Source: Microcaldota archaeon
GTDB lineage: Archaea; Micrarchaeota; Micrarchaeia; Micrarchaeales; Micrarchaeaceae
Direction: 5' to 3'
DNA: 64,000 bases
NCBI GenBank assembly: GCA_021810105.1
Contig: JAJZJM010000004.1
Span: 1 to 64,000, forward strand
This document shows, one piece after another, positions 2,302-25,493 of the stretch. Position 1 is the stretch's first letter. Each line of letters starts with the position of its first letter. Made by a program: the position numbers and the translations under genes. Under the pieces are notes generated by a model that had not been told where the DNA came from, searched no databases, and saw only the letters and a list, made by a program, of their open reading frames with translations.

Positions 2302-2350
2302 CTTTTTATATATTAGTGTAGTTTAAATTTAAAATAGTTTAATTTAAATC
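2302..2350 (+). promoter_or_regulatory. padR promoter with imperfect palindrome
   Basis: A TATA-like TTTTTATATATT (about 2303-2313) is followed at 2321-2350 by GTTTAAATTT and AATTTAAATC halves that form an imperfect 30-bp dyad around the expected start of transcription. PadR proteins commonly bind such AT-rich dyads in their own promoters, so this is a candidate operator for autoregulation of the exporter operon. Binding is inferred. Confidence 0.4.
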
Positions 2351-2379
2351 GTGTTTTGTTGCAAGATTCGCATGACTTT

Positions 2380-2700: not shown

Positions 2701-2704
2701 TGAA

Positions 2705-4827: not shown

Positions 4828-4848
4828 TAAATGATTATTGGTGAGAAA

Positions 4849-6081: not shown

Positions 6082-6111
6082 ATTCAAGGAAGTAGAGGCA
6101 TATGTGATATA

Positions 6112-6984: not shown

Positions 6985-7077
6985 TGCAAATCTTTTTATA
7001 GCCAAAGCAGAAAGAATAATCAAGTAATTTTGCAATAGGCATTATTCAAACCAATTTATCAATAACAAGGTGTAAAA

Positions 7078-7710: not shown

Positions 7711-7769
7711 ATGGAGATAGCTATATATTAATTACCAGCCTCTAGGTATTGTATCCGGTGGGAATTGTG

Positions 7770-9056
7770 ATGCGCAGCAATTATATCTCTGAGATAGGTC
7801 CGGAGCTGGATGGCAAGGAAGTTACACTGGCAGGGTGGGTTCATGAAGTGCGCGAAACAGGCAAGATAACCTTTCTCATCTTGAGAGACATAACCGGCAC
7901 AATACAGGTAATCGGCAAAGAGGGCGAGGTCGACTCCCAGACAATAAAGGCGCTTTCGCTTCCCAAAGAGAGCGTAGTGCGTATAAAAGGAAGGGTAAAG
8001 GCTAGCAAGGAAGCCAAGAAAGGGGTTGAGATAATTCCCAATGAGGTCTCCAACCTCAATCCACTCTCCTCAATTATTCCCTTCGAGGTAACAGGAAAAG
8101 TGCCTGCCGAAATTGACGTGAGGCTGAACAACAGGCATATAGATCTGAGGAGAAAAGAGACGCTCGCAATTTTCAAGATAGAGTCGACTGTCTTGAACGC
8201 CTTTGTATCTTTTTTCTCTAAAAAGGGATTCATGCAGATAAGGACTCCGTCCATGATCTCAGAGGCAAGCGAGGGAGGCGCTGACCTCTTTTCGGTCAAG
8301 TATTTTGAACGCGAGGCATACCTTGCTCAATCTCCGCAGCTCTACAAGCAGCTTGCAATAATAGGGGGCTTCGATAAAGTCTTTATGATAGTGCCGGTAT
8401 TCAGGGCTGAGAAATCCAATACAGTATACCATACCACAGAGTGCACCCAGATGGATATAGAGATGGGCTTTGCAGATCATAATGATGCGATTAAACAGCT
8501 TTCGGCGTGCTTTACAGCGGTGCTCAAAGAGGTAATGAAGAAAAATAAGAGAGAGCTAGAGATATTGGGCATTGAGCTTGAGCTGCCTAAAATTAAGACT
8601 GTGACCTACTCTAATGTAATAAAGAGACTAAGGGAAAAGGGGCATGCTGTTGCCCATGGGGACGATTTCTCAAAAGAGCACGAAAAGGCCATACAGGAGG
8701 AATTTGGCAATGCGGTAATAGTAAAAGAGTATCCTACAGAGGTGAGGGCATTCTATTCTATGCCTAAGGAGAACAACCCAAAACTATGCAACAGCTTTGA
8801 TCTCATATATAATGGATTTGAGATAAGCAGCGGCGCACAGAGGATACACAAGGCTGACCTTCTTATAGATGCGCTAAAATCGAAAGGGCTAGATCCTTCA
8901 AAATTTGAGTTCTACATAAACGCATTCAGGCAAGGTGCTCCGCCGCATGCTGGCTGGAGTATAGGACTTGAAAGGTTCGTAATGTGCATTACAAAATCAG
9001 GCAACATACGAGAGGCATCCCTATTTCCGAGGGATAGGAAGCGCCTTACACCATAG
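7770..9056 (+). CDS. aspS: Aspartyl-tRNA synthetase, archaeal type
   Basis: Class IIb synthetase. The N-terminal OB-fold (VTLAGWVHEVRETGKITFLILRD) binds the anticodon; the catalytic core carries motif 1 (FFSKKGFMQIRTPSM), motif 2 (FRAEKSNTVYHTTECTQMDIEMGF) and motif 3 (GAPPHAGWSIGLERFVM). At 429 residues it has the short archaeal length without the bacterial insertion. ATG 7770 follows GGTGGGA. The His in GWVHEV occupies the OB-fold position that is Trp in aspartate-discriminating archaeal enzymes, so it may also charge tRNA-Asn; that is an inference. It is in an operon with the DHH gene (7-nt gap). Confidence 0.95.
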   Translation: MRSNYISEIGPELDGKEVTLAGWVHEVRETGKITFLILRDITGTIQVIGKEGEVDSQTIKALSLPKESVVRIKGRVKASKEAKKGVEIIPNEVSNLNPLSSIIPFEVTGKVPAEIDVRLNNRHIDLRRKETLAIFKIESTVLNAFVSFFSKKGFMQIRTPSMISEASEGGADLFSVKYFEREAYLAQSPQLYKQLAIIGGFDKVFMIVPVFRAEKSNTVYHTTECTQMDIEMGFADHNDAIKQLSACFTAVLKEVMKKNKRELEILGIELELPKIKTVTYSNVIKRLREKGHAVAHGDDFSKEHEKAIQEEFGNAVIVKEYPTEVRAFYSMPKENNPKLCNSFDLIYNGFEISSGAQRIHKADLLIDALKSKGLDPSKFEFYINAFRQGAPPHAGWSIGLERFVMCITKSGNIREASLFPRDRKRLTP

Positions 9057-9063
9057 TGATTAG

Positions 9064-10047
9064 ATGACGATATACAGCGTGACGCACGTAAAGGACATAG
9101 ACGGCATGGCAAGCGCCGCCCTTCTTGTCAAGAATTTTGACATTCCAGTTAACAATGTCCTCTTCTTTGATCATTCAGATAAGGCCTTCTTTGAAATGAA
9201 GAAAGAGATCCTCTCAATAAAGCCTAAAAAATCCCTTTTCATATTCTCCGATGTGGGGCTAAACGAATTACTAGTTAAAAAATATACCCGCATGGCCGCA
9301 TTTCTAAAAAGGAAAGGTAACTCAATAATCTGGCTAGACCATCATGTATGGAGCGAGGATTCTATAATGGCGTTATCAAAGTATGCCAGCCTGATGATAG
9401 TTGGCGAAAACAAATTCTGCTGCGGCACAGATATAGTATACAAACTATTGTGCAAGAAAGACCAAAAATCAGAAAAGCTTGTCGAGTTTACTCATATATC
9501 GGACCTTTATCTCAAGCCTAAAAGTAAAGCACAGCTTAAAATGCTGGAGAGATACGCATTCGGTATAACATATTTGAATATGCAAAAAACTGAAATTAGG
9601 AATGCAAAACTGCGCAGGCTGATATATATTCTCTCGAAAGGCGATATAAATAATAGTTTGATAAGAGAATGCCACAGCAAATACACTAAGATACTTAGAA
9701 AATCATTGAGGTTTCTTGATGAGAGCGTGCAGATAATAAAAACAAAAAGAGTAAAAATTGCGCTAGGATTTGCTCCCAATCTTCAGAGCACCTTTGCAGC
9801 GCGTAGATTAATACTGAAAAAAAGGGCGCAGATAGGTGCATATGTCAACACTGAAAAAAGATCAAACGTTTCAACATGCTCCCTAAGAAGCATAGGAAAG
9901 GTTCACTGCCTTTACATTGCTGAACGTTTTCGAGGAGGTGGGCACCCCAACGCCTGCTCATTCAGGGTTCCAAAAAGATATGACGTAGAATCTGAAAAAG
10001 GAAAAAGGGCATTCATAAAAAGATTTGCAAAGCTGGCTTCTGATTGA
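9064..10047 (+). CDS. DHH-family phosphoesterase
   Basis: Predicted metal-dependent phosphohydrolase of the RecJ/NrnA-like superfamily. The N-terminal motif THVKDIDGMASAALL (motif I, DxDG), FSDVG (motif II) and WLDHH (motif III, DHH) provide the metal ligands; the C-terminal DHHA1 module ends with the RGGGHPNACSF glycine-rich substrate loop. At 327 residues it is the compact archaeal form. Candidate substrates are short oligonucleotides, pAp or cyclic dinucleotide products; sequence alone does not decide. It is cotranscribed with aspS and convergent with the aIF2 gamma gene, which ends 2 nt away. Confidence 0.85.
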   Translation: MTIYSVTHVKDIDGMASAALLVKNFDIPVNNVLFFDHSDKAFFEMKKEILSIKPKKSLFIFSDVGLNELLVKKYTRMAAFLKRKGNSIIWLDHHVWSEDSIMALSKYASLMIVGENKFCCGTDIVYKLLCKKDQKSEKLVEFTHISDLYLKPKSKAQLKMLERYAFGITYLNMQKTEIRNAKLRRLIYILSKGDINNSLIRECHSKYTKILRKSLRFLDESVQIIKTKRVKIALGFAPNLQSTFAARRLILKKRAQIGAYVNTEKRSNVSTCSLRSIGKVHCLYIAERFRGGGHPNACSFRVPKRYDVESEKGKRAFIKRFAKLASD

Positions 10048-10049
10048 AT

Positions 10050-11288
10050 CTAATCTATAATGCCATAGCCCGCAAGGCGCCATCTCTTAGAAGCGTTTCT
10101 CAGCACGGCTATCCTGGCCCCTTTCTCCGCACAGACTGGATTCTTAAGCTCTACCTCCACAGTGCTTTTCTTTATGGTTTTTGCATAACCTATAACTGTT
10201 GCAGTCCCTATCCCCATTAGCAGCGGCTCATACTCCTTTATTTTCTGAGAAGGTATGTCTTTCCTATCAATAGGGTAATACGCAATCTTCAGCAAAGAAG
10301 TGCTTTCAGGGAGCTTTCCAACATGGCCAACAAGGTTGCCCACAAGGCTATCAGATTTTACAAAAGCTGGGTCTATCTCTGTCGATATTCCTATAAGCCC
10401 TCCAGGCATCGCCTCGTCCATCATGTCTGAGCCATTGCTTATCCCAGTTATTACAGTAACAATATTTCTATAGGACTGCTTCTTAGATCCTGGCTCTTCG
10501 AAGTTTGCACCAGGCCTAAGCTCGATCTTATCCCCTATTTTCAGCACCCCTTTTTTCAGAGAGCCTCCTATCACCCCTCCTGAGAAACTGGAAAGTTTGC
10601 TGCCAGGCTTATTTATGTCAAATGATCTTACAACATACATTATCGGATCTGATTTAAGGTCTCTCTCAGGTCTTGGAAGTTCCGCTATCATCTCAAGAAG
10701 CACGTCAACGTTTACGCCCTGGTTGGTCATAACCGGTATTACTGGCGCATTTTCTATAGAGCTACCCTTAACAAATTCTTTTATCTGCATGTAATGTTTT
10801 ATTGCACCCTCTTTTCCGACTATATCAACTTTGCTCTGTACTATTATCACATTTTTTATCCCAAGCAGGTTTATTATCATAAGGTGTTCTCGGGTCTGCT
10901 GCATTGGGCACGGTTCGTTAGCAGCTATTACAAAAAGTATTGCGTCTATCACGCTTGACCCTGCGATAGCTGTTGCCATGAGGGTTTCGTGGCCCGGAGC
11001 ATCAAGCAGTGACACTCTCATAAGTGGCACAGATGCAGATTCGCAGTTTTTGCATTTTTCCTCAGTTGTATAAGCCGCAGCTCCTGCGCATTTAGGGCAT
11101 TTCCTTATTATTGCATCAGCATAGCCTAGCTTAATGGTCATGTTCCTTTTCAGGCTCTCACTGTGCTTGTCAGTCCAAATATGGGTTATTGCCCTTGTCA
11201 AAGAGGTTTTGCCATGGTCTATATGGCCAAGCGTACCTATGTTCATTACGCTTTGCTTTATGTCGGTTTTTTCCAATTTACCACTCAT
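10050..11288 (-). CDS. eif2g: Translation initiation factor aIF2 subunit gamma
   Basis: GTPase core of the heterotrimeric factor that brings Met-tRNAi to the small subunit. G1 is GHIDHGKTS (about 21-29), then the zinc knuckle CPKCxxxxAYTTEEKCKNC, G3 LLDAPGHE and G4 QSKVDIV, followed by domains II and III with KPGSKLSSFSGGVIGGSL and GGLIGISTEIDP. At 412 residues it is the normal length. The start overlaps the S6e stop by 4 nt (ATGA), so the two are translated together. Position and order (S6e then aIF2 gamma) are classic for archaea. Confidence 0.96.
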   Translation of the reverse strand: MSGKLEKTDIKQSVMNIGTLGHIDHGKTSLTRAITHIWTDKHSESLKRNMTIKLGYADAIIRKCPKCAGAAAYTTEEKCKNCESASVPLMRVSLLDAPGHETLMATAIAGSSVIDAILFVIAANEPCPMQQTREHLMIINLLGIKNVIIVQSKVDIVGKEGAIKHYMQIKEFVKGSSIENAPVIPVMTNQGVNVDVLLEMIAELPRPERDLKSDPIMYVVRSFDINKPGSKLSSFSGGVIGGSLKKGVLKIGDKIELRPGANFEEPGSKKQSYRNIVTVITGISNGSDMMDEAMPGGLIGISTEIDPAFVKSDSLVGNLVGHVGKLPESTSLLKIAYYPIDRKDIPSQKIKEYEPLLMGIGTATVIGYAKTIKKSTVEVELKNPVCAEKGARIAVLRNASKRWRLAGYGIID

Positions 11289-12119: not shown

Positions 12120-12458
12120 ATGGTGATATTTACGCCCAGGAAAAATATAAAAAAAGAGAAATTAGAAAATGCTCTAAACAAATTACAAAAGGTCTACGAT
12201 AAGGCGCCCAGGTATCCAAGGCCGGATATGCCGTGGGACGATAGCTACAAAGCTATGCTGAAGGCTAAGATAAAGAAATTGAAGCTAGAATTGATAGAGG
12301 CCAGCAAAAGAATTCACCTAGATGGGTTCTACATTAGGAAGCTAGGCGACGCAACTGTCGCGCTTGTGGGTTTTCCGAATGCGGGTAAATCGTCACTGAT
12401 TAATGCAATAGCTAGCACCAAATCAAAATCTGCTCAGTATGCTTTTCATAAGAACTAA
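12120..12458 (+). pseudogene. DRG/COG1163-type GTPase, truncated after the P-loop
   Basis: The N-terminal 109 residues fit the DRG-like GTPases: a charged helical region (LKAKIKKLKLELIEASKRI), then KLGDATVALVGFPNAGKSSL with the P-loop GFPNAGKSS and the segment SKSAQYAF, which in intact proteins is followed at once by the switch I sequence TTL. Here the homology ends at base 12446 and three foreign codons lead to a stop. G2 to G5 and the TGS domain are absent. The downstream sequence is an antisense LanC-like gene, so the break coincides with the edge of the AT-rich island. The rest of the GTPase is not in the window. Confidence 0.85.
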
Positions 12459-13068
12459 GATGGTCATTTTTTATATAAAAATAAAATTTCTTATTTCCAT
12501 CTCCACATAAATTTACGAAAGTCCTTAAAATAGTTTCAAGTGCGTATCTTACTCTTTTTGTTTTGTTTTTATATAACAAATAAGCTCCAACACCACTCAT
12601 ACCATTAATTATATCATATGATGATCTAGATATCCCATCTTTTTGAGTGTTTAGTGTTTCTGAAAATTTCACTGTTTTTGTAAGCAATAAATCATCAAAA
12701 GTTTTAATTAGGTTATTGTATCTAGTAAAATTTCTCGATAAAAACACTGCTGACATAGCTATTCCGCTTAAGCCACTAAATAAACCAATGTCTAACTCCT
12801 TTTCTTTTTCTAAGCTATTTACTGTTATCTCTAAGCATTTTTTCCCTAACACATCCCACTTTTCATCGGGAAAAATAATATCGAAATACGAACAGGCAAG
12901 CGCTATCCCTGCATAACCGTCAGCAATATTATAATTAACTTGATTATTCCCTATAAAATTCGAATCTAATTCTATGCGATTATAAATCATTTTTTTACTA
13001 ATTTTTATAATATTGTTAATTTCCTTCATATGGTTGTTTGGAATTTTTAATGGTTCCCAATTAGACAT
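12412..13068 (-). pseudogene. LanC-like cyclase, C-terminal half missing
   Basis: LanC proteins are alpha/alpha-barrel zinc enzymes that add Cys thiols to dehydroamino acids in lanthipeptides. The 218 residues show the repeated barrel motifs YAGIALACSYFD, LFSGLSGIAMSAVFLS and YDIINGMSGVGAYLLYK. The active-site part with the AHG motif and the Cys, Cys-His zinc ligands normally follows, but the frame runs into the remnant GTPase at 12447/12446 and ends there, its last residues being antisense GTPase sequence. It probably lacks catalytic activity. It follows the S41 peptidase by 4 nt in the same operon. Confidence 0.8.
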
Positions 13069-14248: not shown

Positions 14249-14318
14249 GCAATCATTGTATAATTAATTGATATTATCTTATTGCTTTATTAGTATAATA
14301 TTTATTAGATACTATCTT

Positions 14319-15290
14319 TAGGCTTTGTAGAAATCCTCTATTCTGACTTATAACCGAGGGATTTTAACCCCTCGGTTCATTTTGATTTTGGCGATCAAAA
14401 TGACTAGAGAACCTATCTATCGAAAATTTATAGATGTATGCCTGAAAGTCGGGAAAAGGTACCTCCGATCTTATTCGAGTAAATATTCGAAGAAGACGTA
14501 TACCCAGCCGCAGTTAACTGCTGCTGTCTGTTTGATGAAAAGGGAGCGTAAAACATACAGGGATATCGTCGATTTACTGCCAGAACTCGGAAAATACTTT
14601 TCATTTGGCAAATCGATACCGCATTGGACAACTTTACAGAAGTTCCTGAAACGGATTCCACTCGGGATTTGGGACCTGATTCTTGTCGGAACGTACAAAC
14701 TATTCTGCGCAAGAAATGTGAACACCGCAATAGACGGAACAGGTTTTGACGAACTCCACGCATCGCATTATTACGAAAAAAGAGTCGGAAGAGACATCAA
14801 CAAACGGCGTTTCATGAAACATTCAATATTTGTTGATACAGATTTCCAGGCGATAATCTCATCATGTGGCAAGGAATCAGGCCCACATGACACACTCGAC
14901 TTCAAACCGCTGATAAAATTCGGCAGTAGATTTGTAAAAATCAAAACCGTCACCGCAGACAAGGGATATGATTCTGAGGAAAACCATAGGTTTGCAAGGG
15001 AGGAGATCGGTGCCGAGTCGATAATACCGGCGAGAAACGATAATTCCGTGTGGAGAATGCGTGGTCACTATAGGAAGAAGATGAGAAGGGACTTCCCCCT
15101 AAAGAAATACCATCAAAGGTCAAAAGTCGAGACAATAAATGCCGTTGAAAAGAGGAAATTCGGACAAGATCCCAGGAGTACAAAATTTGAAATGAGGCAA
15201 AAGGAGTTGAAACTCATCGACATCGTTTATAATGTCTACAGGTTCAACAACAAATTTTATTTGTTGTTCATAGGATTTCTACAAAGCCTA
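14319..15290 (+). mobile_element. DDE insertion sequence (IS5/IS4-like), about 0.97 kb
   Basis: Perfect 17-bp terminal inverted repeats GGCTTTGTAGAAATCCT (14321-14337 and its complement 15272-15288), each flanked by TA on the outside. TATCTTTA stands on both sides (14313-14320 and 15289-15296), so the target duplication is either 8 bp, or TCTT if the TA belongs to the ends. One transposase gene fills it. The element sits between the S41 operon and the radical SAM operon, which were about 0.45 kb apart before insertion. Intact repeats indicate a recent insertion. Confidence 0.9.
14352..14377 (+). other. Stem-loop ahead of the transposase start
   Basis: AACCGAGGG (14352-14360) pairs perfectly with CCCTCGGTT (14369-14377) over an 8-nt loop. 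It lies between the left inverted repeat and the transposase ATG. Insertion sequences often carry such a structure to damp translation from transcripts entering from outside; that role is inferred. Confidence 0.5.
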
Positions 15291-15398
15291 TCTTTAATAT
15301 CTAACGACTCTTATCAAAGCTTTAAAACTTGTAGTACAATCCTGGAGCGGTGTCCTACGGTGCCGGGATCGAATCTCTCGCACTACTGTCAAGCTTAA
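14400..15398 (+). CDS. IS5/IS4-like DDE transposase
   Basis: The 332-residue protein has an N-terminal helical DNA-binding part (about 1-100) and a DDE core: Asp in NTAIDGTGFD, Asp in TADKGYDSEEN and Glu in KVETINAVEKRKFG. ATG 14400 is chosen over the upstream TTG at 14382. The C-terminal YNVYRFNNKFYLLF reaches the right inverted repeat, and the frame has no stop inside the element: it runs through the repeat and adds about 35 residues encoded by flanking DNA before TAA at 15396-15398. The frame is otherwise undamaged, so it is probably active. Confidence 0.85.
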   Translation: MTREPIYRKFIDVCLKVGKRYLRSYSSKYSKKTYTQPQLTAAVCLMKRERKTYRDIVDLLPELGKYFSFGKSIPHWTTLQKFLKRIPLGIWDLILVGTYKLFCARNVNTAIDGTGFDELHASHYYEKRVGRDINKRRFMKHSIFVDTDFQAIISSCGKESGPHDTLDFKPLIKFGSRFVKIKTVTADKGYDSEENHRFAREEIGAESIIPARNDNSVWRMRGHYRKKMRRDFPLKKYHQRSKVETINAVEKRKFGQDPRSTKFEMRQKELKLIDIVYNVYRFNNKFYLLFIGFLQSLSLISNDSYQSFKTCSTILERCPTVPGSNLSHYCQA

Positions 15399-15815: not shown

Positions 15816-15858
15816 AAAGTTATAAATAATAGTTAGCATAATAAGAAAATGTGATTAG

Positions 15859-15984
15859 ATGGGACTACATATAAAAAAGGAAGCAAAGGAGGAAATGGAC
15901 ACCGATATAATATTAGAGACGGCTACAGTAGACCCTAAATTTTATGCATTCCTAAAAAAGGGTGGGCACTGCTGCATGGGCTGA
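15859..15984 (+). CDS. Candidate RiPP precursor peptide (41 aa, ...KKGGHCCMG)
   Basis: A short frame directly upstream of two radical SAM genes. The N-terminal 34 residues look like a leader: charged at first (HIKKEAKEEMDTD), then ILETATVDPKFYAFL. The C-terminus is KKGGHCCMG, with adjacent Cys residues after a Gly-Gly pair, a typical leader/core border. A TATA-like TTATAAATA (15821-15829) precedes the ATG by about 30 nt and GTGATT lies just before it. Thr residues at about 21 and 23 and Cys at 38 and 39 are the obvious sites for modification. Leader, core and chemistry are inferred from context; the frame itself is plain. Confidence 0.65.
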   Translation: MGLHIKKEAKEEMDTDIILETATVDPKFYAFLKKGGHCCMG

Positions 15985-16051
15985 AGCTGACACCTTTATT
16001 ATATTTTTAGGGAGGCAAAGTTAGTGTATACTATCAAAGCGGTGTTCTAAG

Positions 16052-17170
16052 ATGAAAGTTACACGTCTTGAAAATATTGGCATACTAGTTAACGATGACT
16101 CTGTCTTAGGTAGCTACTTTTTAGCGAAAAAGATTCCACCCAATTGTAAGGTAATTGATAATAGAACTGATAACAAGAAAAGACTAAACGCTCCAATATA
16201 CTTAGATATATACCCATCATTTTTATGTAATTTCAGATGCTCTTTCTGTTATTTAAAACTTTTAGGAATAAATTTAACAGATTCTAAACAGATGTCAAAT
16301 GAAACTATAAATGCCACTATAAAGATGTGTGAAGACCATGGCATAAGCACAATAAATATATTAGGTGGAGAACCCTTACATCCACTTACTTGGTCTACTA
16401 CGCGCAAACTTATCGAAAGAGCACATGAAAAGGGAATTGGGGCTGATGTAACAACAAATGGTTCCTTTTTAACTGAAGAAATTGTTAGCTTTATGAATAA
16501 GAATCAGACAAAATTGAATTTGTCACTTCATAGCCTGCAGTCTAATAATAGCAAAGAAATATTAGGATTGGATGTGTCACAAAGATTAAGAGATATCATA
16601 CTTAATGTCGTAGATGGAAAAATTAACTATGGTTTAACCACTGCCATACTAAAAACAAATATTAATGAGATTGAGCAATTAATAAGCTTTGTCAATACTC
16701 TCTCAACCTGTGGCGCTTGGGTCTGGAGATATGTTACAGTATTTGGGAATTTTGACAAATCCACACTTTACTCTGCCAGGGAATTTTTTGAATTATACAA
16801 GAAATACAAGAGTCAGATAAAAAAGAATGTTTATTTTGATGGACCATTCAGTTACAAGTACTTAAATATTAAGCCATTAGAGACAGAGTTTGATGCGGTG
16901 CTATCTCCATGTTGTAATCCAGGCGAATCAAAAGCAGAGACCCTGCCGGATGGAACTGTCTATTCCTGTATCCTTTTTTATGGCGACAACAACCAAGTAA
17001 TGGGCAATGTATCTACAGGAATCAATTTTACCAAAAGCTATGGTTATAAAAAAGTTTCATGTAGCAATTCTTTATGTAGTTACAACAAGTACTGCACTGG
17101 TTGTACCGCTTATGCAAATAGAACAGGTATAAAATTTGATGATCGCTGTGAGTACACACAAAAAACATAA
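16052..17170 (+). CDS. Radical SAM protein with Cys-rich SPASM-like tail
   Basis: A 372-residue enzyme expected to make a 5'-deoxyadenosyl radical and act on a peptide. The canonical cluster motif is CNFRCSFCY (CxxxCxxC) near residue 60, followed by NILGGEPLHP, the Gly-rich SAM-binding GGE motif. After the partial TIM barrel the C-terminal 90 residues are Cys-rich: SPCCNPG, the PDGTVYSC strand, then CSNSLCSYNKYCTGC and a last Cys at DDRCEY. This matches SPASM or twitch auxiliary-cluster domains of peptide-modifying members. An N-terminal 50-residue segment could contact the leader. It begins 67 nt after the candidate precursor, with which it probably shares a transcript. Confidence 0.88.
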   Translation: MKVTRLENIGILVNDDSVLGSYFLAKKIPPNCKVIDNRTDNKKRLNAPIYLDIYPSFLCNFRCSFCYLKLLGINLTDSKQMSNETINATIKMCEDHGISTINILGGEPLHPLTWSTTRKLIERAHEKGIGADVTTNGSFLTEEIVSFMNKNQTKLNLSLHSLQSNNSKEILGLDVSQRLRDIILNVVDGKINYGLTTAILKTNINEIEQLISFVNTLSTCGAWVWRYVTVFGNFDKSTLYSAREFFELYKKYKSQIKKNVYFDGPFSYKYLNIKPLETEFDAVLSPCCNPGESKAETLPDGTVYSCILFYGDNNQVMGNVSTGINFTKSYGYKKVSCSNSLCSYNKYCTGCTAYANRTGIKFDDRCEYTQKT

Positions 17171-17507
17171 AAACCAAAACTTTATTAGACTGAAAGGTGT
17201 AATAGCATTTCCAAGAGATACTTCAGGGGAAGCGTTTATCTTGCAAGGTTCTAATAAAAAAAAGTTTAAAGACAAATTTATACTTATTGCAGAAGCCACA
17301 TATCCGGAATATTTACCAATAATGCTTAAGTCAAGTGGTATAGTTACTGAAGTAGGCGGTATATTGTCACATGCAGCAATAGTAGCGCGCGAATTTAGTA
17401 TACCCTGTGTTGTAGGAGTAAAAGGTGCAACAAGTAAAATAAAGGAGGGGGATCAGGTTATTATAAGAAAAAATGGTGTTGTACTTGTTAAACACAAGCG
17501 AGAATGA
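17136..17507 (+). CDS. Stand-alone phosphohistidine (PEP-utilising mobile) domain
   Basis: The roughly 115-residue protein is the swivelling His domain found in pyruvate phosphate dikinase, PEP synthase and rifampin phosphotransferase. It shows ILIAEATYPEYLP, then the signature GGILSHAAIVAREFSIPCVVG with the phospho-accepting His, and GDQVIIRKNGVV. It lacks any ATP-grasp or PEP-binding part; the ATP-grasp half is a separate gene at 19573. It overlaps the end of the first radical SAM gene and the start of the second by about 35 nt each. ATG 17136 or 17139, or GTG 17148, could start it. Partner exchange between the split halves is inferred. Confidence 0.85.
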   Translation: MMIAVSTHKKHKNQNFIRLKGVIAFPRDTSGEAFILQGSNKKKFKDKFILIAEATYPEYLPIMLKSSGIVTEVGGILSHAAIVAREFSIPCVVGVKGATSKIKEGDQVIIRKNGVVLVKHKRE

Positions 17508-19572
17508 TGTAAGCTATCTAATTAAAGACAAAATGATGCAGAGAGGCTTTCGTTACTTATACAAAAATTCTGATGAATTTCGATTAGAAATCATGGATTT
17601 AAAGAAAAATATTTCTCTACTTACAAATGAGGTATTAACAGAAGAAGTGCTAGAAAAGGTCAGCCAATTTGTTGATAATAGAATAGAAAACTATTTAAAG
17701 GAATTGAGGGACGAGGATGAATATATTGCAAAGACTGTCAACAAAATAAAGATTGCGGATGCTGAAGTAGCCCTTTCTGAATTATACTTCAAATCTCAAA
17801 TATACTTTTTGTATAATGAAGTATTCACATATGGCGCAATGGACTTGATCCTTAGAAAGCAGATAACAAAAAACAAATTAGACGTAGAAAAGACTTTGCT
17901 TGGACTATCTAATTATAAAGGCACCGCAGTACACACAGTATACAAGATGCTTACAGGATTTCAAATTCCCAATACAAAACTTGAATTTATCAAATTGCAA
18001 AAAAGAGACGCGAAATTTAGGAAAGCTATTGGTACACTTAGTACTAATATCGCGGATTATTTTGAAGAAAAACCAACACTAAACGAAATATACTATATGA
18101 TTAAGGCAGCGAGTGAACATGCAAATTCGGTTAATACAGAAACAAGTCTCCCAGATATAGGAAAACCTCTAATCCAACTTTATGTCTTTATTGTTAATAC
18201 TCAGAGGAAATTATTTATATCCCAAAATATATATATAAATGCAACAAAAAAAATATTTAAGAAATTCCCAAAATTGGACAAAGTATATGGCGGTCAAAAA
18301 CCTAAAGGTCCTTTGCTAGATTTGTATCTAGATAAAATAAAGGAATTAAAAGGACATAAGCTACTACAGCCAAATATATACTATAATGGCTTCGTATTCA
18401 ACCTTGATGAACGGAAACATACTCGCTTATCTGATAGGGGCAGTAAGATCATAGAAGCAATTATCAATAAAAAAGTTGCTGATGGTATATCAATACTAGA
18501 TGCCGGTAACATAGTTAAAAAATTAAACGACGAAGGCATAATTGAGAAGGATGTACAAAAACCAAAAAAGCCAAGTTCCTATATTTTTATGCTGGAACTG
18601 GCTTTAGGCTGCAATCTTAACTGCACAATATGTTTTAATAGAGGTTTTAAGCGCCAAAGGATAGTTACAGTAGATGAGTGGTGTAAGATAATATACTCGA
18701 TTCCAAAAGGGTCACAAATAATCCTCTTTGGAGGTGAACCATTTTTTTATCCATGGGTAGGCAAGATAATAGATTATATACAAGAAACCAACAAAAAGGA
18801 AGAAAGGCATTGGAAAGTAGAGGCATTTACTAACGGCGTACTTACAAATAAAATACTAGATAGCTTAAAAGGAAAAGAAAGGTTAAAATTGATATTTAGT
18901 ATAGATGGTCTTCAAGATGCCCATGACACCATAAGAGGCAAAGGTGCATTTAACCATGCTATAGAGACCATAAAACGGTTAAAAACCGAGACATTACATG
19001 AGATAGAGGTAAGGAGTGTAGTTACAGCAAAAAATTATAACTCTGTAAAGGAGTTTATAAATTTTTTCAAGCGTCTTGGTGTAGATGAAATAACATTTAC
19101 CGATCTGCATGTAACTGGCAATGCAAAAAAACATTTAGATTATGTTTTAACTCCAGATCAGAGACTAAACGTATTGCATTGGCTTGGTAATTACAAAGAT
19201 TCCATATTGACAAATGGCTATTCTGATTCTGAGATATACCCAAATAGTTGTGGAATAGGTTTCAATAGAATATATATAAGGAGTGATGGCTTAGTTAATG
19301 GCTGTTCAGAATTAGATGTCTCTGAATATAATATATCCAATGCCAAACTTAATAAAAAAGGTGTACTTGAAAATCCTAGAAACCTAATACCCAAGTTTGA
19401 GAGAGATGAATTTAACAGTTCTGACTCTGATTGTGCCAAATGCGGTTTATTATATTTATGTGGTGGTGGTTGCAGATCTCGTGCACTAAAGCAAACAGGA
19501 AATATCAACAGTTGTGATGTAGTACAAAAGGAAGACATAATTAGAGTATTAAATAAAATTAAGGGTAATTAA
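17473..19572 (+). CDS. Large radical SAM-SPASM protein with N-terminal extension
   Basis: A 699-residue protein. Residues 1 to about 300 are helical and match no family I know. About 305-355 (NLDERKHTRLSDRGSKIIEA and the helix after it, to LNDEGIIE) resembles a PqqD/RRE winged-helix leader-binding module. The radical SAM core starts with CNLNCTICF (about 379), then FGGEPFFYP and FSIDGLQDAHD. The SPASM tail has CGIGFNRIYIRSDGLVNGC and CAKCGLLYLCGGGC, the usual CxxCxxxxxC pattern. Such architecture is typical of enzymes that modify ribosomal peptides. The 300-residue front might hold the substrate site that the split dikinase lacks; that is speculative. Confidence 0.85.
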   Translation: MVLYLLNTSENDVSYLIKDKMMQRGFRYLYKNSDEFRLEIMDLKKNISLLTNEVLTEEVLEKVSQFVDNRIENYLKELRDEDEYIAKTVNKIKIADAEVALSELYFKSQIYFLYNEVFTYGAMDLILRKQITKNKLDVEKTLLGLSNYKGTAVHTVYKMLTGFQIPNTKLEFIKLQKRDAKFRKAIGTLSTNIADYFEEKPTLNEIYYMIKAASEHANSVNTETSLPDIGKPLIQLYVFIVNTQRKLFISQNIYINATKKIFKKFPKLDKVYGGQKPKGPLLDLYLDKIKELKGHKLLQPNIYYNGFVFNLDERKHTRLSDRGSKIIEAIINKKVADGISILDAGNIVKKLNDEGIIEKDVQKPKKPSSYIFMLELALGCNLNCTICFNRGFKRQRIVTVDEWCKIIYSIPKGSQIILFGGEPFFYPWVGKIIDYIQETNKKEERHWKVEAFTNGVLTNKILDSLKGKERLKLIFSIDGLQDAHDTIRGKGAFNHAIETIKRLKTETLHEIEVRSVVTAKNYNSVKEFINFFKRLGVDEITFTDLHVTGNAKKHLDYVLTPDQRLNVLHWLGNYKDSILTNGYSDSEIYPNSCGIGFNRIYIRSDGLVNGCSELDVSEYNISNAKLNKKGVLENPRNLIPKFERDEFNSSDSDCAKCGLLYLCGGGCRSRALKQTGNINSCDVVQKEDIIRVLNKIKGN

Positions 19573-20319
19573 TTGAGAGATATAGTTCTTCAAACAGAGA
19601 GCAGTTCTAGGAGAATTGTTGGTGGAAAAGCATTTTCTCTTTTAGTACTAAATAAAGCAGGGTTCAATATCCCTCCTTTTTTTATTCTTACCACCAAAAC
19701 TACGCAGTATCTAAAAAATCGGGATGTACATAAAAAGTTTCTTTTAGAAATTAAAAATACATACAAAACTGCCATAAAAAACGGCAAGGTGGCTGTACGT
19801 AGTTCTACCACCATAGAAGATTCACGGAAATCAAGCTTTGCAGGCCAATTTAAAACCGTGTTAAACGTTGATATAAATAATGTATATGGAGCAATTGAAG
19901 AGGTTTATTTATCTATACCCAAGGTTGTAGCTGCTTATGGACCGAGAATTAAACATGGTGCTAAGATTGAAATGGCAATAATAATACAAAAAATGGTAAA
20001 CCCCGATAAAGCAGGAGTTATATTTACAGCAGACCCTATAAACGGCAATAAAAGCAAGATAATAATAGAGGTTGTAAAAGGACTAGGCGAAGCTTTAGTT
20101 TCAGGATCAAAAACACCAACTAAATATTATATTTCTAAAACGCATAGCAATATATTGAATCGCAGCGGTAAAAACCTAATCCTCCTTGGAGAATTGAAAC
20201 AGTTATGCGATATAGCTATATCAATAGAAAAACTATTTGACTATCCCCAAGACATAGAATTTGCAATAAAAAAAGGCAAAATATATATATTACAAAGCAG
20301 AGATATAACCACATTATAA
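19573..20319 (+). CDS. Stand-alone dikinase ATP-grasp domain (PPDK-N type)
   Basis: A 248-residue protein equal to the N-terminal nucleotide-binding domain of PEP synthase, pyruvate phosphate dikinase and rifampin phosphotransferase: VGGKAFSLLVLNKAGFNIPP, VAVRSSTTIEDS and SFAGQFKT (the basic ATP-binding strand), IIIQKMVNPDKAGVIFTADP, EVVKGLGEALVSG and the terminal DIEFAIKKGKIYILQSRDIT with Glu/Gln/Arg ligands. Nothing follows the QSRDIT end, where the full enzymes continue into the His domain. TTG starts directly after the stop of the radical SAM gene. With the His domain at 17136 it makes one enzyme in two chains, whose likely job is to pass a phosphate from ATP to a substrate made or bound by this operon. 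Confidence 0.87.
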   Translation: MRDIVLQTESSSRRIVGGKAFSLLVLNKAGFNIPPFFILTTKTTQYLKNRDVHKKFLLEIKNTYKTAIKNGKVAVRSSTTIEDSRKSSFAGQFKTVLNVDINNVYGAIEEVYLSIPKVVAAYGPRIKHGAKIEMAIIIQKMVNPDKAGVIFTADPINGNKSKIIIEVVKGLGEALVSGSKTPTKYYISKTHSNILNRSGKNLILLGELKQLCDIAISIEKLFDYPQDIEFAIKKGKIYILQSRDITTL

Positions 20320-20895
20320 TTTATCAAGCACATATTTCCTTTTAAGTATTCTTAATGCACTGCTAAACGATAGCTTCCAATAAATAGGCCCTATCAATTG
20401 ATAAAATTCATGCATTATTTTTAATTTGTGATTTCTGTAAAAAGACAGCATTCCTTTCTTTGTTTTCAATATTCTCCACTCGACTATAAAATTGCTAACC
20501 CCTTGTGTTCTGTTAAATGACTTATATGTTCTTTCCAATGTTATATTATCTCCTATTATTGAAGTTAAGAAGAAATCAAATGCGACTATCTCACTAGGCA
20601 TCCAAAATTCACAGACTAATTTGCCACGAACACTTTCTGCTATGGCTGCTATAGCTCTTACCCAATTTATAGGTTCACCCCATATATCAGGATATCGTAT
20701 AATGCATAGGTCATACTTTTCTTTAGTCATTTTGTAATTTTCTATCCAGAAAAATTGTTTAGATATATGTAAATTTTTGAATTTTGTTGTATTTACTTTT
20801 GTAAGCGGACCATAAGCATCTACTCTATCAAATTGCTCCATCTCTTTGTTCAAATCTTTGGCATCTTCAAATGCCAAAAGCAAGCATTTTTTCAT
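20314..20895 (-). CDS. Hypothetical protein, possibly methyltransferase-like
   Basis: 193 residues from the ATG at 20895 (an upstream start at 20925 would add ten). The middle section YDLCIIRYPDIW, then NWVRAIAAIAESVRGKLVCEFW and ITLERTYKSFNR resembles the second half of a class I Rossmann methyltransferase (the strand ending in RxP and the following helix and strand), but no GxGxG SAM loop is visible. The C-terminal 60 residues are basic and hydrophobic (SFYRNHKLKIMHEF, LRILKRKYVL). It converges on the ATP-grasp gene with a 6-nt overlap. The family is uncertain. Confidence 0.6.
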   Translation of the reverse strand: MKKCLLLAFEDAKDLNKEMEQFDRVDAYGPLTKVNTTKFKNLHISKQFFWIENYKMTKEKYDLCIIRYPDIWGEPINWVRAIAAIAESVRGKLVCEFWMPSEIVAFDFFLTSIIGDNITLERTYKSFNRTQGVSNFIVEWRILKTKKGMLSFYRNHKLKIMHEFYQLIGPIYWKLSFSSALRILKRKYVLDKL

Positions 20896-20995
20896 AAGAA
20901 CATACTCGGTAAATATGTATAACATGCATTTGACAATATTTAAGTCTTTAGGGAAGAGGAAGAGAACTGAACATGCCTTCGTCGTAAAGCATAAA

Positions 20996-21069
20996 TGCGA
21001 TCGCCGGGATTTGAACCCGGGTCTTTGCCTTGGAGGGGCAAAGTCCTGACCAGGCTAGACTACGATCGC
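20996..21069 (-). tRNA. tRNA-Gly (TCC anticodon)
   Basis: Cloverleaf on the minus strand: acceptor GCGATCG/CGATCGC, D arm GTCT...GGAC, anticodon stem extendable to 7 bp (CTTTGCC/GGCAAAG) around the loop CCTCCAA giving TCC, T arm CCGGG TTCAAAT CCCGG, discriminator A, no encoded CCA. Position 33 is C rather than the usual U. The gene closes the AT-rich island on its right; its 3' end faces the island, as expected for an integration site. Confidence 0.93.
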
Positions 21070-21185
21070 ACAGCTAATTATTGATGCATAAAGGTTAAAA
21101 ATAGGCTACATTTAAAATTTCGAAAAAATACTTAAAAAAAAGCTGGCATCATCGCGCTCTGCTCAGCCCAACCATATCTGCATTG

Positions 21186-21452
21186 TTACCAACGGTCTTT
21201 CTCTGCTGCTATTATCAGTGCAGCGGCGCCGAATCTCATTTTCCTCCTCTTGGCCTCTTTCATTGCCTTGAGGGTGTATTCTGCAGTTTTCTCTGCTAGA
21301 ATGGATTTTAGCGCAGTTCCCGCGCTCTCATCCCATTCCAGTGCCCCGGCTTCGCTGAAGACCTCTGCTACGTCGCTCTCACTGAGAGCTTTCGTCGCTT
21401 TCCTCTTCACCCTGAGAGCCAGTAGCTCTCCCCCATCTTTTCCACTTCTCAT
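21186..21452 (-). CDS. Histone-fold protein with N-terminal tail
   Basis: An 88-residue basic protein. Residues about 28-86 fit the histone fold: helix 1 DVAEVFSEAGA, loop, long helix 2 SAGTALKSILAEKTAEYT and on to KAMKEA, loop KRRKMRF, helix 3 GAAALIIAAE. Archaeal histones follow the same plan (helix 1 ending in EAGA, and the RKT-type basic loop 2). Unlike the usual 65-70-residue archaeal form it has a 25-residue N-terminal tail with LRVKRKATK. ATG 21452 follows GGGGGAA and is preferred over the TTG at 21461. If correct, it would package DNA together with the tandem Alba protein. 21462-21693 holds only promoters and AT-rich sequence. Confidence 0.5.
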   Translation of the reverse strand: MRSGKDGGELLALRVKRKATKALSESDVAEVFSEAGALEWDESAGTALKSILAEKTAEYTLKAMKEAKRRKMRFGAAALIIAAEKDRW

Positions 21453-21693
21453 TTCCCCCAACTCTTTAACTTAAATTTACTGTCTTCTCATTCCACATAC
21501 TCTTTGTGATGAAGTATATATTTAAATGTTTAGTGGAGGTTTCTAACATATACTTAGAATATTTACAGATTAATGGCTAAATATATAAAAAGAATTTTAT
21601 TTTAGAATGTCCCTACGTATACAAAAAATAAACAGGTGCTTCTAATCAATTAAGCTGCAAGACCACATTTCCAAAAACATATTCGTTATTAAT

Positions 21694-22266
21694 CTAAATT
21701 GTGCTCCAGAGGCTATTAAAGTGCTGTTTCAATGCTGATATTCTTTCTGCATCAAATGTCACTTCTATATGCTCTATGTTCTTTCTTGTTCCCGAGTAAG
21801 TCAGGTTTGCGCTTCCAAGTATTGCAGAACTATCCGATATATAGAGCTTTTCATGTATGAACTTGGTATCTGATACTTTTACCGCAATCCTGTTCTTCAG
21901 CATCGCAGCCCTTTTCACAGCTATTACAAGAAGTATCACCACAACCGGTATCAGCAGCAGTTCAAGGTAGTACAGCTTTAAAAAGAAGAATATCACCTCC
22001 AATATTATGAAGTATATTGCGGCCTTTATGTAGCCAGCCCCCGGTCTGCTCTTCCGTATTAGCTTAACCGCATCAGAGCTTACTACAGAATTAGAGGTGA
22101 TTATTCGTACTTGCCTTCTTCCAGATGCCCATATCAGCATCCTGGCATAATACTCGTTTATGTATGGGCAAACTATAAGCAGTTCAGAGCGCGTTTTTTC
22201 TTTAATGAGCTTATCTATTTCTTTATAGGTTTCATCTCCGCTATAGCTGATGTTCCGCTCTTCCAT
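21694..22266 (-). CDS. Membrane-bound phospholipase D-like protein
   Basis: 190 residues with a single HKD catalytic motif near the C-terminus: HEKLYISDSSAILGSANLT. The N-terminal half (ELLIVCPYINEYYARMLIWA, RQVRIITS) is the first PLD-fold strand set. A hydrophobic hairpin of about 40 residues (about 95-140, IYFIILEVIFFFLKLYYLEL and LIPVVVILLVIAV) is inserted in the middle, so it should sit in the membrane. One HKD implies a dimer, as in small PLD nucleases. The substrate could be phospholipid or nucleic acid. Confidence 0.82.
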   Translation of the reverse strand: MEERNISYSGDETYKEIDKLIKEKTRSELLIVCPYINEYYARMLIWASGRRQVRIITSNSVVSSDAVKLIRKSRPGAGYIKAAIYFIILEVIFFFLKLYYLELLLIPVVVILLVIAVKRAAMLKNRIAVKVSDTKFIHEKLYISDSSAILGSANLTYSGTRKNIEHIEVTFDAERISALKQHFNSLWSTI

Positions 22267-22370
22267 TCAATCGGTTATCTAGGAAGTCAACCTCTTAAAT
22301 ACTTTTGTTACAGATATTAAAGCTTGTTGCGTAATTAAGTATTTTAACCTAGAACTGAAATGGTAGTGTA

Positions 22371-25300
22371 ATGATTAATCTAAACGAGCGCGAAGAAAAA
22401 ATATTGGACTACTGGAAAACCAATAGCGTAGATGAATCTGTTCGTTTAAAGAACAGAAACTGCAAGAAGTTCTATTTCCTTGATGGTCCACCATATGTGA
22501 CCGGAAATATAGCAAGTCATCACATCTGGGTGGTTACTATAAAGGACATAGTTTTGCGTTATAAGAGATATAACCACTACAACGTTCATGATAGGCCTGG
22601 TTTTGATGTCCATGGGCTACCCATAGAGAATAAGGTTGAAAGGAAACTAGGCATAAAGTCAAAGAATGACATAGAGAGCAAAATTGGTGTAGAAGAATTT
22701 ATTCGTCAATGCAAGAACTTTGCAGAAGAGCAGATGAAAGAAGCTACAAAAATGTATATAAGATACGGCTACTCTGCCAATTTCAATGAGACATATATTC
22801 CCCTAAAAAATGCATACATGAGCAAGGGATGGATGATACTCAAGAAATTGCATAAAAAGAATCTAATCTACTCTGATATGCAAGCTCTCGCTTTTTGTCC
22901 GCAGTGCGGCACTGTATTATCATCCCAGGGGCCGGAAATAGAATATTCGGATGAGACTGACGCCTCGATATTTGTCAAGTTTCCTGTGTTAAGATCCGCA
23001 AAGCTCCAACTGGGCAAAAATGCGTTCCTGGTAGTCTGGACAACGACTCCGTGGACATTGCCTGCAAACATGGCCATCGCAGCCAATCCAAAAGCACGAT
23101 ACGTTGTAGTCGAGTCTAATGGCGAAAACTATGTAATTGCAAAAGAAAGGCTTGATGCTTTTGTGGAAGCAACGAATTTGAATGTTATAATAAAAAACGA
23201 ATTTTATGGGTCTGAATTAGGAGGGCTTCAGTATTCCAATCCATTGGAAAACAAGATACCCATGCAAAATAAATTTTCAAAGTATCACAAAGTCCTTTTG
23301 GATGAAAATTTAGTATCAATCTCAGAAGGTACCGGGCTGCTTCATGTGGCTCCTGGCCACGGGCCGGAGGATTATAAGCTAGGAAAGGAAAATAAGATAC
23401 CTATTTTTTCTCCTGTGGACGAGCATGCACATTATACGGAAGAAGCTGGTGCCTATAAAGGGCTAAGCATTCCATCCGAGGCAAACATTGTAATTCTCCG
23501 AGATCTCAAAGATACTGGAAACCTCTTATTCCAAGGTGAGGTAAAGCACACGTATCCGCACTGCTGGAGATGCGGCAGCAAACTGATATTTAGGGCGACA
23601 AAGCAGTGGTTTGTTAATGTAAAAAAATTAAAGAAAAAAATGCTTATAGAAAATAAAAAAATAAAATGGCACCCGGATGTTGCGCAGAAATGGCAGGAGG
23701 ATGCCATAGAAAGTTCTCCCGATTGGTGCATTTCAAGGCAAAGGTATTGGGGCACGCCTATACCGATATGGGTGTGCGGCGGGTGCAACTCTTTCGACGT
23801 AATAGGATCTATCGAGGAGTTGGTAGCCAGGGCAGGACTTGCTGCCGCACCTGAAGACATCCATAAGCCCCATGTGGACAAGATCAGGATTAAATGCGAC
23901 AGCTGCGGAGAAACAATGCAAAGAATACCCGATGTCTTTGACGTATGGTACGATTCTGGAGTATCACACACAGCAAGCCTGACTGATGAGGAGTTCAATG
24001 AGCTCTTTCCAGCAGACTGGATAACAGAAAGCAGGGATCAGATAAGAGGGTGGTTCAGCATGCTGCTAAGAACAAGCGTAGGCGCATACGGTAGGCGCAG
24101 CTTCAATGAAGTTAATATAGGAGGCATGATACTGGACGAGATAGGAAGGGAGATGCACAGGCATCTGGGCAACTCAACAAATGCGTCTGACCTCCTTAAT
24201 ATAGCATCTGCAGATGGCTACAGGCTATGGAATTCCAGGCACCCCCGGTGGCAAGAACTAAGGCTGAAGAAAAAGGAGTTGGAGGAATCGGATGGTGACA
24301 TACTCACTCTATATAATATCGCTGAGTTGGTAAAGGAGTTTGCTAGCCTGTCCAGCTACGATTTGAAGAACGTTAAGAGACCTAACATTAACAGGGCTCA
24401 AGTTGAAGACAGGTTCATATTGTCAAAACTCAATTCTCTTATTAGCAGAGTAAATGAAAGCATGCGCGTCTACAGCATAGACGAGGCAATAAATGAGATA
24501 AGGCACTTTTTTGTAGAGGATTTCAGCAGGTTTTATCTCAGATATGCAAAGCAGAATATTTCATACGGAACTAAAAGCGAGCTGAAAAAGACCACAGGAG
24601 TGGCTGCATATGTTCTTCGGAATGTTCTGATACTCATATCAATTGTAACTCCATTCTCAGCAGAATACATCTTCCAAAATTTATTTTCAAACAACGAAAA
24701 GTCCATATTCCTGCAGGAATGGCCAAAATCAAATAAAAGATTTATCGACGATGAACTGGAAAAAAGGATAGAGATTGCAAGAGGGGCGATCTCTGCAATT
24801 TTAAGCAGCAGGGAAAAAGCAGGCGTAACTCTGAGGTGGCCTATTGCCAAGGCAACTATAGAAGTTACCGATGACCAAATATATACCGAAATTCAGGAGA
24901 TGTCGCAGCTCATCGAAGGATATACTAACGCCAAGAAGCTAGAGATTATAAAAGTGTCGGGAGTAAAAAAGGAGATAAAACCCCTTTACGCAAAACTAGG
25001 CCCAGTATTTAAGAGCATGGCTGGAACTGTAGCAGATGCTCTTAAATCCGCAAACCCGGAAGATCTCGAAAAAGGAGTTGCAGAATCCGGAGAGTACCTG
25101 CTTAGGACGCAGAGTGGTAATTTTACCATAAAGCCAGAACACTTCACCATAATAGAGAAAGCAGAGGAGGGAGAAAGGGCCTCTTTTAATCACGGAATTG
25201 CATATATAGACAAGAAGCTTGACAGAGGTCTGATGAATGAGGCGCTAGTAAGGGAGTTAACAAGGCATGTACAGCTTATGAGGAAAGAGGCGGGCCTCTC

Positions 25301-25493
25301 TAGACTAGATAAAATAGACTTAGGCATAACAGCCCCCCAGGAAATAATGAATGCCTTAAACTCTGATCTGAAATCTGTAAAGAGGATCATAATGGCTAGA
25401 AGGATAAACGAGGGGCAAATAGCAGAGAGCATAAGCAAGAAGGTAGACATTGCGGGTATGGAAGCCACACTGTACCTAAAAAAGGATAGCTAA
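22371..25493 (+). CDS. ileS: Isoleucyl-tRNA synthetase
   Basis: Class Ia synthetase of 1040 residues. The HIGH equivalent is GPPYVTGNIASHHIW (about 36-50), with GFDVHGLPIE after it. The editing domain has TTPWTLPANMA and GLLHVAPGHGPEDY; a Zn site CWRCG precedes SRQRYWGTPIPIW. The place of the KMSKS loop reads DEIGREMHRHLGNS (about 588-601): archaeal relatives often have MHKS there, so both usual Lys and Ser are replaced by Arg and His. The anticodon-binding helices and C-terminal domain are present. The strong promoter region and isolated position suggest single-gene expression. Confidence 0.96.
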   Translation: MINLNEREEKILDYWKTNSVDESVRLKNRNCKKFYFLDGPPYVTGNIASHHIWVVTIKDIVLRYKRYNHYNVHDRPGFDVHGLPIENKVERKLGIKSKNDIESKIGVEEFIRQCKNFAEEQMKEATKMYIRYGYSANFNETYIPLKNAYMSKGWMILKKLHKKNLIYSDMQALAFCPQCGTVLSSQGPEIEYSDETDASIFVKFPVLRSAKLQLGKNAFLVVWTTTPWTLPANMAIAANPKARYVVVESNGENYVIAKERLDAFVEATNLNVIIKNEFYGSELGGLQYSNPLENKIPMQNKFSKYHKVLLDENLVSISEGTGLLHVAPGHGPEDYKLGKENKIPIFSPVDEHAHYTEEAGAYKGLSIPSEANIVILRDLKDTGNLLFQGEVKHTYPHCWRCGSKLIFRATKQWFVNVKKLKKKMLIENKKIKWHPDVAQKWQEDAIESSPDWCISRQRYWGTPIPIWVCGGCNSFDVIGSIEELVARAGLAAAPEDIHKPHVDKIRIKCDSCGETMQRIPDVFDVWYDSGVSHTASLTDEEFNELFPADWITESRDQIRGWFSMLLRTSVGAYGRRSFNEVNIGGMILDEIGREMHRHLGNSTNASDLLNIASADGYRLWNSRHPRWQELRLKKKELEESDGDILTLYNIAELVKEFASLSSYDLKNVKRPNINRAQVEDRFILSKLNSLISRVNESMRVYSIDEAINEIRHFFVEDFSRFYLRYAKQNISYGTKSELKKTTGVAAYVLRNVLILISIVTPFSAEYIFQNLFSNNEKSIFLQEWPKSNKRFIDDELEKRIEIARGAISAILSSREKAGVTLRWPIAKATIEVTDDQIYTEIQEMSQLIEGYTNAKKLEIIKVSGVKKEIKPLYAKLGPVFKSMAGTVADALKSANPEDLEKGVAESGEYLLRTQSGNFTIKPEHFTIIEKAEEGERASFNHGIAYIDKKLDRGLMNEALVRELTRHVQLMRKEAGLSRLDKIDLGITAPQEIMNALNSDLKSVKRIIMARRINEGQIAESISKKVDIAGMEATLYLKKDS

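Follow-up and report, generated by a model that had tools for sequence, protein, structure and literature searches.

Dikinases with the ATP-grasp and swivel phosphohistidine domains on separate chains are known from HpeHI, PpsAB and CreHI, working enzymes that all act on phenols or phenol derivatives, and the phosphorylated histidine of swivel domains lies in a T/SxxGGxxxH motif (PMC12167813). The roles of the ATP-site residues K22, R117, T136 and E297 have been assigned in RPH (PMC4844700). Here we analyze an operon of five frames at positions 15859-20319 on the forward strand of the window, a 64,000-nucleotide stretch of contig JAJZJM010000004.1 from a Micrarchaeota genome. The frames encode, in this order, a candidate precursor peptide, a radical S-adenosylmethionine (SAM) enzyme (rSAM1), a lone swivel domain (HIS), a second radical SAM enzyme (rSAM2) and a lone dikinase ATP-grasp domain (PPDK_N). 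We found no described peptide-making pathway that combines two radical SAM enzymes, a split dikinase and a peptide, and altered forms of this combination recur in related archaea.

We put at about 0.5 the probability that this is a maturation operon of the type that produces ribosomally synthesized and post-translationally modified peptides (RiPPs), with its dikinase divided into three parts and the acceptor domain of that dikinase joined to rSAM2. This reading draws on the architecture and motifs of the encoded proteins, the retention of gene order and a low dN/dS (the ratio of nonsynonymous to synonymous substitution rates) in a second genome, a convergent gene that accompanies only the intact operon, the kinship of the radical SAM enzymes with CteB, SkfB and SuiB, and the recurrence of related clusters in the order. 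The genes form a real and conserved set. It is not described in the open-access literature that we searched, where no paper was found on radical SAM genes together with phosphoenolpyruvate (PEP)-utilizing or dikinase genes in a RiPP context.

Organization of the operon

The features of the locus are as follows.

15820-15829, forward strand: archaeal TATA-like box TTATAAATAA, about 34 nt 5' of the precursor ATG, located by eye and without statistics
15859-15984, forward strand: candidate precursor peptide of 41 aa, MGLHIKKEAKEEMDTDIILETATVDPKFYAFLKKGGHCCMG, with the C-terminal end FYAFLKKGGHCCMG
16052-17170, forward strand: rSAM1, with CNFRCSFC, GGEP and SPASM-like C-terminal cysteines (PF04055, 1e-14)
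17136/17139-17507, forward strand: lone swivel phosphohistidine domain (HIS), TEVGGILSHAAIVARE, with His79 counted from TTG 17136 (PF00391, 5e-25)
17473-19572, forward strand: rSAM2, a radical SAM/SPASM enzyme (PF04055, 2e-17, aa 377-531) whose aa 1-350 fall in no recognized family
17473-18342, forward strand: domain X, the N-terminal aa 1-290 of rSAM2, predicted at low confidence to be all-helical, without a family match
18361-18540, forward strand: RiPP recognition element (RRE)-like segment of PqqD type, about aa 297-356 of rSAM2, with strands followed by two helices
18586-19518, forward strand: radical SAM core and SPASM cysteines of rSAM2 (CNLNCTIC 380-387, CX2CX5CX3C 654-667, C681)
19573-20319, forward strand: lone dikinase ATP-grasp domain (PPDK_N; PF01326, 8e-50)
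20314-20925, reverse strand: convergent protein of 193-203 aa, without a match in Pfam or PDB

The four enzyme frames overlap or abut. The swivel frame spans 17136-17507, with the ATG at 17139 as its likely start, and encodes a free protein of about 123 aa. The position of the TATA-like box would imply that the 5' leader is very short or absent. An earlier note, made from these letters alone, had described the same five frames, and they are present where it placed them; family matches bear out both radical SAM enzymes as well as the PF00391 and PF01326 domains. Its assignment of both enzymes to the radical SAM/SPASM group also holds, since each has the CxxxCxxC motif and auxiliary-cluster cysteines, in the arrangement CX2CX5CX3C...C in rSAM2 and with variant spacing in rSAM1. 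The convergent gene is an additional neighbor absent from that note.

Radical SAM enzymes and dikinase components

Among proteins of solved structure, the best relatives of rSAM1 are SuiB (5v1q, 2e-13) and CteB (5wgg), and those of rSAM2 are CteB (1e-11) and SkfB (1e-9). The NCBIfam scores of both enzymes are far under the cut-offs and therefore, judged by sequence, neither belongs to a named maturase family. Ahead of its radical SAM core, rSAM2 contains a segment with the strand and helix order of an RRE, and its HMMER alignment with CteB begins at CteB residue 47, upstream of the CteB radical SAM core. The top Foldseek matches of a weak model of this segment (predicted local distance difference test, pLDDT, 53) include the RREs of TbiB1 (5v1u, 5v1v) and CteB (5why), at E-values of 0.5-2 that are not significant. 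An AlphaFold model of rSAM2 built from a three-sequence alignment was poor (pLDDT 41).

The PPDK_N residues K19, R76, T95 and E229 align with K22, R117, T136 and E297 of RPH and are kept in all three orthologs, and the swivel domain carries TEVGGILSH79, a T/SxxGGxxxH motif with its phosphorylatable histidine. The operon thus retains all of the dikinase catalytic residues together with the motif of each radical SAM enzyme. Domain X occupies the slot between HIS and PPDK_N, which is filled by separate proteins of approximately 320-540 aa in three other genomes of the order (G172, G056 and G155, see below), and for this reason we propose it as the phosphoryl-acceptor domain. With the swivel being a free protein, aa 1-290 of rSAM2 would be the sole candidate for this role. 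That radical chemistry and phosphoryl transfer act on a common substrate is best argued from the presence of domain X in the same chain as a radical SAM enzyme with an RRE-like segment.

Conservation, selection and origin

Searches were run at three levels, namely the phylum (295 genomes), the order (164 genomes) and, as a profile scan, about 85,000 species genomes. Among the 295 genomes, rSAM2 has a single full-length relative, in G181 (KMA_Bin04, 67% identical and from a different family), and a broken relative in G065 (YF4.bin12), while in G046 the search gave a generic radical SAM match only. The profile scan again returned G181 and G065 as the sole loci, both from Candidatus Micrarchaeota. 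Single-sequence scans of GTDB and viral contigs with rSAM2 detected no relatives, the two Micrarchaeota loci being recovered by the alignment-based scan alone, and a plasmid search gave generic radical SAM matches only.

The G181 locus keeps the order rSAM1-HIS-rSAM2-PPDK_N with the convergent gene behind it, and its enzymes are 65-77% identical to those of the window. The G181 contig begins inside rSAM1, so that the precursor region lies outside it; the C-terminal third of rSAM1 is 77% identical. In G065 the copy is decayed, with a degraded rSAM1 and a broken rSAM2. The swivel domain is 68-72% identical in the two genomes. The search for the same gene order that the earlier note had suggested thus reveals that the order of the enzyme genes is not unique to this genome.

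Between the window and G181, the proportions of nonsynonymous (pN) and synonymous (pS) differences are 0.13-0.21 and 0.54-0.71, respectively, across all compared genes (dN/dS about 0.1-0.2), and both copies are therefore under purifying selection. For domain X, dN is 0.25 and pS is 0.65. The convergent protein was identified in exactly two of the 164 genomes, namely those with an intact operon, and the G181 protein is 73% identical and encoded in the same place. The operon was probably acquired, because it is absent from eight other searched genomes of the genus and the G+C content of its genes (0.32-0.35) differs from that of the surroundings (0.42-0.44).

Related dikinase clusters in the order

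PPDK_N genes are present in 38 of the 164 genomes of the order, mostly in single-chain dikinases, and the window genome also has a full-length one (G000:C2). Beyond the window, the order contains at least three clusters in which a split or fused dikinase adjoins genes of RiPP type. The clusters that we compared are listed below.

G172 (locus L065), 6727-9384, reverse strand: 46-aa Cys-containing precursor, HIS, 322-aa protein and PPDK_N, with no radical SAM gene
G155 (locus L070), 2340-10049: 29-aa frame (...LTLVCTTGKPNSV), HIS, 541-aa slot protein, YcaO, PPDK_N, 433-aa protein and radical SAM enzyme
G056: HIS, relative of the G155 slot protein, abhydrolase and PPDK_N
G265: 56-60-aa Cys-ended frame with the end YCGTKPCKGEYS, AlbA-like radical SAM enzyme and PPDK_N-HIS fusion
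G001: radical SAM enzyme, PPDK_N-HIS-C and spermidine-synthase-like protein
G052 (locus L081), 5062-10289: 48-aa Cys-ended precursor, then three radical SAM genes

The 46-aa precursor of G172 is homologous to the 48-aa precursor of G052 (YFDDTW-KAF---YS-PC; none of 2000 shuffles reaches the score), and hence one precursor family is associated with radical SAM enzymes in G052 and with a split dikinase in G172. No other independent link between dikinases and peptides in our dataset is as strong as this homology, and it is no proof that the window precursor, which is not significantly similar, belongs to the same family. A profile of the G052 and G172 precursors detected no further members. In G155, the slot protein is fused to a C39-like peptidase domain, the YcaO protein is of SagD type, the radical SAM enzyme is MoaA-like, and the directly upstream 29-aa frame contains CTT. 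The radical SAM enzyme of G265 has no close relative in the order.

Several further observations concern dikinase genes and the G065 locus. Dikinase genes lie near the isoleucyl-tRNA synthetase (IleRS) gene in four genomes, i.e. the window genome (window 20995-25493), G001, G056 and G227 (loci L064, L068 and L078), which suggests a common insertion spot. G092 (locus L074, 260-4279) encodes a protein of 1339 aa in which two swivel His domains are combined with PPDK_N at the C-terminus, an unusual dikinase order. Behind the decayed operon of G065 (locus L015, 12535-17742) there are genes for a class II tRNA-synthetase-like protein, two methyltransferase-like proteins, a protein with a weak match to histidyl-tRNA synthetase (HisRS), and an S66 LD-carboxypeptidase, from the family that includes MccF; they are perhaps another small-molecule or peptide cluster.

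Proposed pathway

A RiPP-type pathway is probable. If the operon encodes one, the dikinase very likely acts in it, and, given both, we infer phosphorylation of the peptide, with even chances that the peptide itself is the phosphate acceptor. In the proposed sequence of events, the 41-aa peptide would be the substrate and its N-terminal part would be bound by the RRE-like segment of rSAM2. Cross-links, most likely Cys thioethers, would be introduced by both radical SAM enzymes via C38 and C39, which lie near the C-terminus. The ATP-grasp chain would phosphorylate His79 of the free swivel domain, which would then deliver the phosphate to an acceptor held by domain X, so that a single enzyme-bound peptide would undergo both radical chemistry and phosphoryl transfer. 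The candidate acceptors are Tyr29, the carboxylate at the C-terminus and a small molecule joined at a later stage, and we favor the first two. Tyr29 is the sole side-chain hydroxyl near the core, and is a candidate because the known two-component dikinases phosphorylate phenols. That the operon represents a new RiPP class, in which the swivel passes phosphate to a peptide held on a radical SAM/SPASM enzyme in a step coupled to cross-linking, and that it is one branch of wider dikinase-assisted peptide pathways in Micrarchaeota, is a tentative proposal with the odds against it.

The RiPP-like operon with a two-chain dikinase put forward in the earlier note is thus supported by gene order, catalytic residues, the RRE-like segment and the sister clusters, while the lanthionine route that it had suggested is not (see below).

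A number of points weigh against the peptide-maturation reading, and the window precursor is its weakest link. In favor of the frame, shuffling of the spacer gives an expectation of 0.019 ATG frames of at least 30 aa with two or more Cys in the last eight residues, against the one observed, in a post hoc comparison. A precursor search over the 295 genomes gave chance-level matches only and no homolog, with the G181 contig starting too late to include this region and the G065 copy decayed. The G+C content of the precursor frame (0.41) is nearer to that of the host than to that of the operon genes. Compared with the precursors of G052, G172 and G265, the window peptide shows no significant similarity (p 0.07-0.29), and an A-F and Cys pattern common to the window, G052 and G172 precursors was likewise rejected as not significant. 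The peptide has no Ser or Thr after T23, and the commonest peptide phosphorylation is therefore unavailable in the core. The RRE-like segment has no significant sequence or fold match. Domain X is proposed as an acceptor solely from its position; it has no match in Pfam or PDB, and homology with either the remaining slot proteins or the C-terminal part of single-chain dikinases was not supported, with hhalign probabilities below 1% from shallow alignments. Finally, neither a transporter nor a dedicated leader peptidase was seen conserved with the operon.

Alternative explanations

The alternative that best survives is a small-molecule or cofactor pathway, in which the dikinase would phosphorylate a (perhaps phenolic) molecule on domain X, the radical SAM enzymes would act on the same molecule, and the 41-aa frame would be incidental. 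Characterized dikinases of this type act on small molecules (PMC4844700, PMC12167813), the precursor has no detected conservation and a G+C content unlike that of the operon, and domain X has no known peptide-binding relative. On the other hand, CteB/SkfB/SuiB-like radical SAM/SPASM enzymes and an RRE-like segment are typical for peptide substrates, the split dikinase of G172 follows a precursor homologous to a radical-SAM-associated one, and G155 pairs its dikinase with a SagD-type YcaO. On balance we consider this pathway unlikely.

A second alternative retains the RiPP operon and changes the role of the dikinase, which would convert a carboxylate, either that of the C-terminus or that of an Asp or Glu residue, into an acyl phosphate for ligation, amidation or ring formation, without a phosphopeptide. 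Each of the two dikinase chains has PigC and RedH, in which a dikinase-like fold is used to join two molecules, among its best NCBIfam relatives, and the core offers a free C-terminus and no Ser or Thr. However, no second substrate or ligase partner was recognized, and sequence cannot tell the acceptor. We regard this role as distinctly less probable than the small-molecule pathway.

Two further explanations are very improbable. The first is that a conventional but split PEP synthase or pyruvate phosphate dikinase lies next to radical SAM genes that have nothing to do with it, as the best scores of the ATP-grasp and swivel domains against PEP synthase would allow. The Pfam scan of the operon proteins, however, found no PEP/pyruvate-binding C-terminal domain, so that their architecture is not that of a PEP synthase; the window genome itself and other members of the order have full-length dikinases on a single chain; and HIS and PPDK_N flank rSAM2 in overlapping or touching frames in both the window genome and G181. 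The second, of comparable weight, is a decaying mobile island with no present function. The low G+C content, the IS5 element, truncated neighbors, the decayed G065 copy and the absence from eight other genomes of the genus would fit this view, whereas no frame or catalytic residue is disrupted in the window or in the part of the operon that the G181 contig covers, and dN/dS is about 0.1-0.2.

The upstream neighbors bear on the last alternative. The LanC-like and S41 peptidase frames that the earlier note had mentioned are located no more than 4 kb upstream and have an equally low G+C content, and an IS5 transposase gene (14382-15398) separates the pair from the operon. An IS5-family element with 43-nt inverted repeats that are 79% complementary spans 14295-15314, between the S41 gene and the operon. 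The LanC-like frame (12412-13068) is a fragment cut at about 12441 that covers positions 3-139 of a 350-position profile and lacks the zinc-ligand half, and we therefore rejected it as a pathway member. The cut coincides with the start of a diverged N-terminal fragment of a DRG-type GTPase (window 12120-12458), itself truncated at the boundary of the low-G+C island; the window genome also encodes an intact relative of this GTPase (G000:C3; 69.5% DNA identity over 141 nt). S41 homologs were found in seven genomes without the operon, in unrelated neighborhoods in those inspected, and membership of the S41 peptidase in the pathway is unsupported. In the scan of neighboring proteins, nothing except the LanC-like fragment matched LanB or LanM. 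Separately, G185 (locus L027, 15-4582) has a LanC gene adjoining a full LanB dehydratase gene (PF04738, 5e-114), a class I lanthipeptide gene pair in Micrarchaeota, and its LanC retains the zinc-ligand half that is missing from the window frame.

The idea of the earlier note that phosphorylation prepares for an elimination leading to a LanC-type ring, taken here together with the S41 protein as a leader peptidase, is hardly credible despite the proximity and equally low G+C content of the two genes, because the LanC-like protein is truncated, S41 relatives occur without the operon, IS5 intervenes, no LanB or LanM was seen among the scanned neighbors, and the core has no Ser or Thr.

Comparison with known systems

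To our knowledge, no known RiPP class uses a swivel-dikinase phosphoryl-transfer step. The swivel-phosphohistidine dikinases that we found described act on small molecules, and their recruitment to a peptide, if true, would extend that enzyme logic to RiPPs. It would also mean that ultra-small DPANN archaea with genomes below 1 Mb retain peptide-making clusters.

The window operon resembles HpeHI, PpsAB and CreHI in having the ATP-grasp and swivel domains on separate chains, with the same catalytic residues and the T/SxxGGxxxH motif. Those systems act on a phenol and carry swivel and acceptor domain on one chain. In the window the swivel is a protein of its own, the proposed acceptor domain shares its chain with an RRE-like segment and a radical SAM/SPASM enzyme, and the first gene of the operon encodes a peptide. 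With RPH and PigC/RedH it shares ATP-grasp and swivel His domains accompanied by a second-substrate domain, which in the window is a proposed one. Those enzymes, in contrast, are single chains with antibiotic or prodiginine-type substrates and no radical SAM component, and domain X has no detectable similarity to them.

Among RiPP maturases, the ranthipeptide and sactipeptide enzymes CteB, SkfB, PapB and AlbA are similar to the window system in the RRE-like segment, the radical SAM core, the SPASM cysteines and a short Cys-containing candidate precursor. The window differs in NCBIfam scores far under the cut-offs (79/340 bits for PapB), an extra N-terminal domain of about 290 aa, two maturases and a dikinase. 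The streptide-type maturase SuiB (5v1q) is the closest solved relative of rSAM1; the window precursor has no Trp, so that a Lys-Trp core cannot form, and the KxxxW family score (49/500 bits) is far under the cut-off.

The closest parallels in the order are the G172, G155 and G265 clusters, in which a split or fused dikinase lies beside a short precursor-like frame, in G155 and G265 together with RiPP-type enzymes. They differ from the window in slot proteins unrelated by sequence, in the absence of a radical SAM enzyme from G172, in the YcaO protein and C39-like domain of G155, and in the fused dikinase of G265. Four cluster types are now at hand for direct tests by co-expression.

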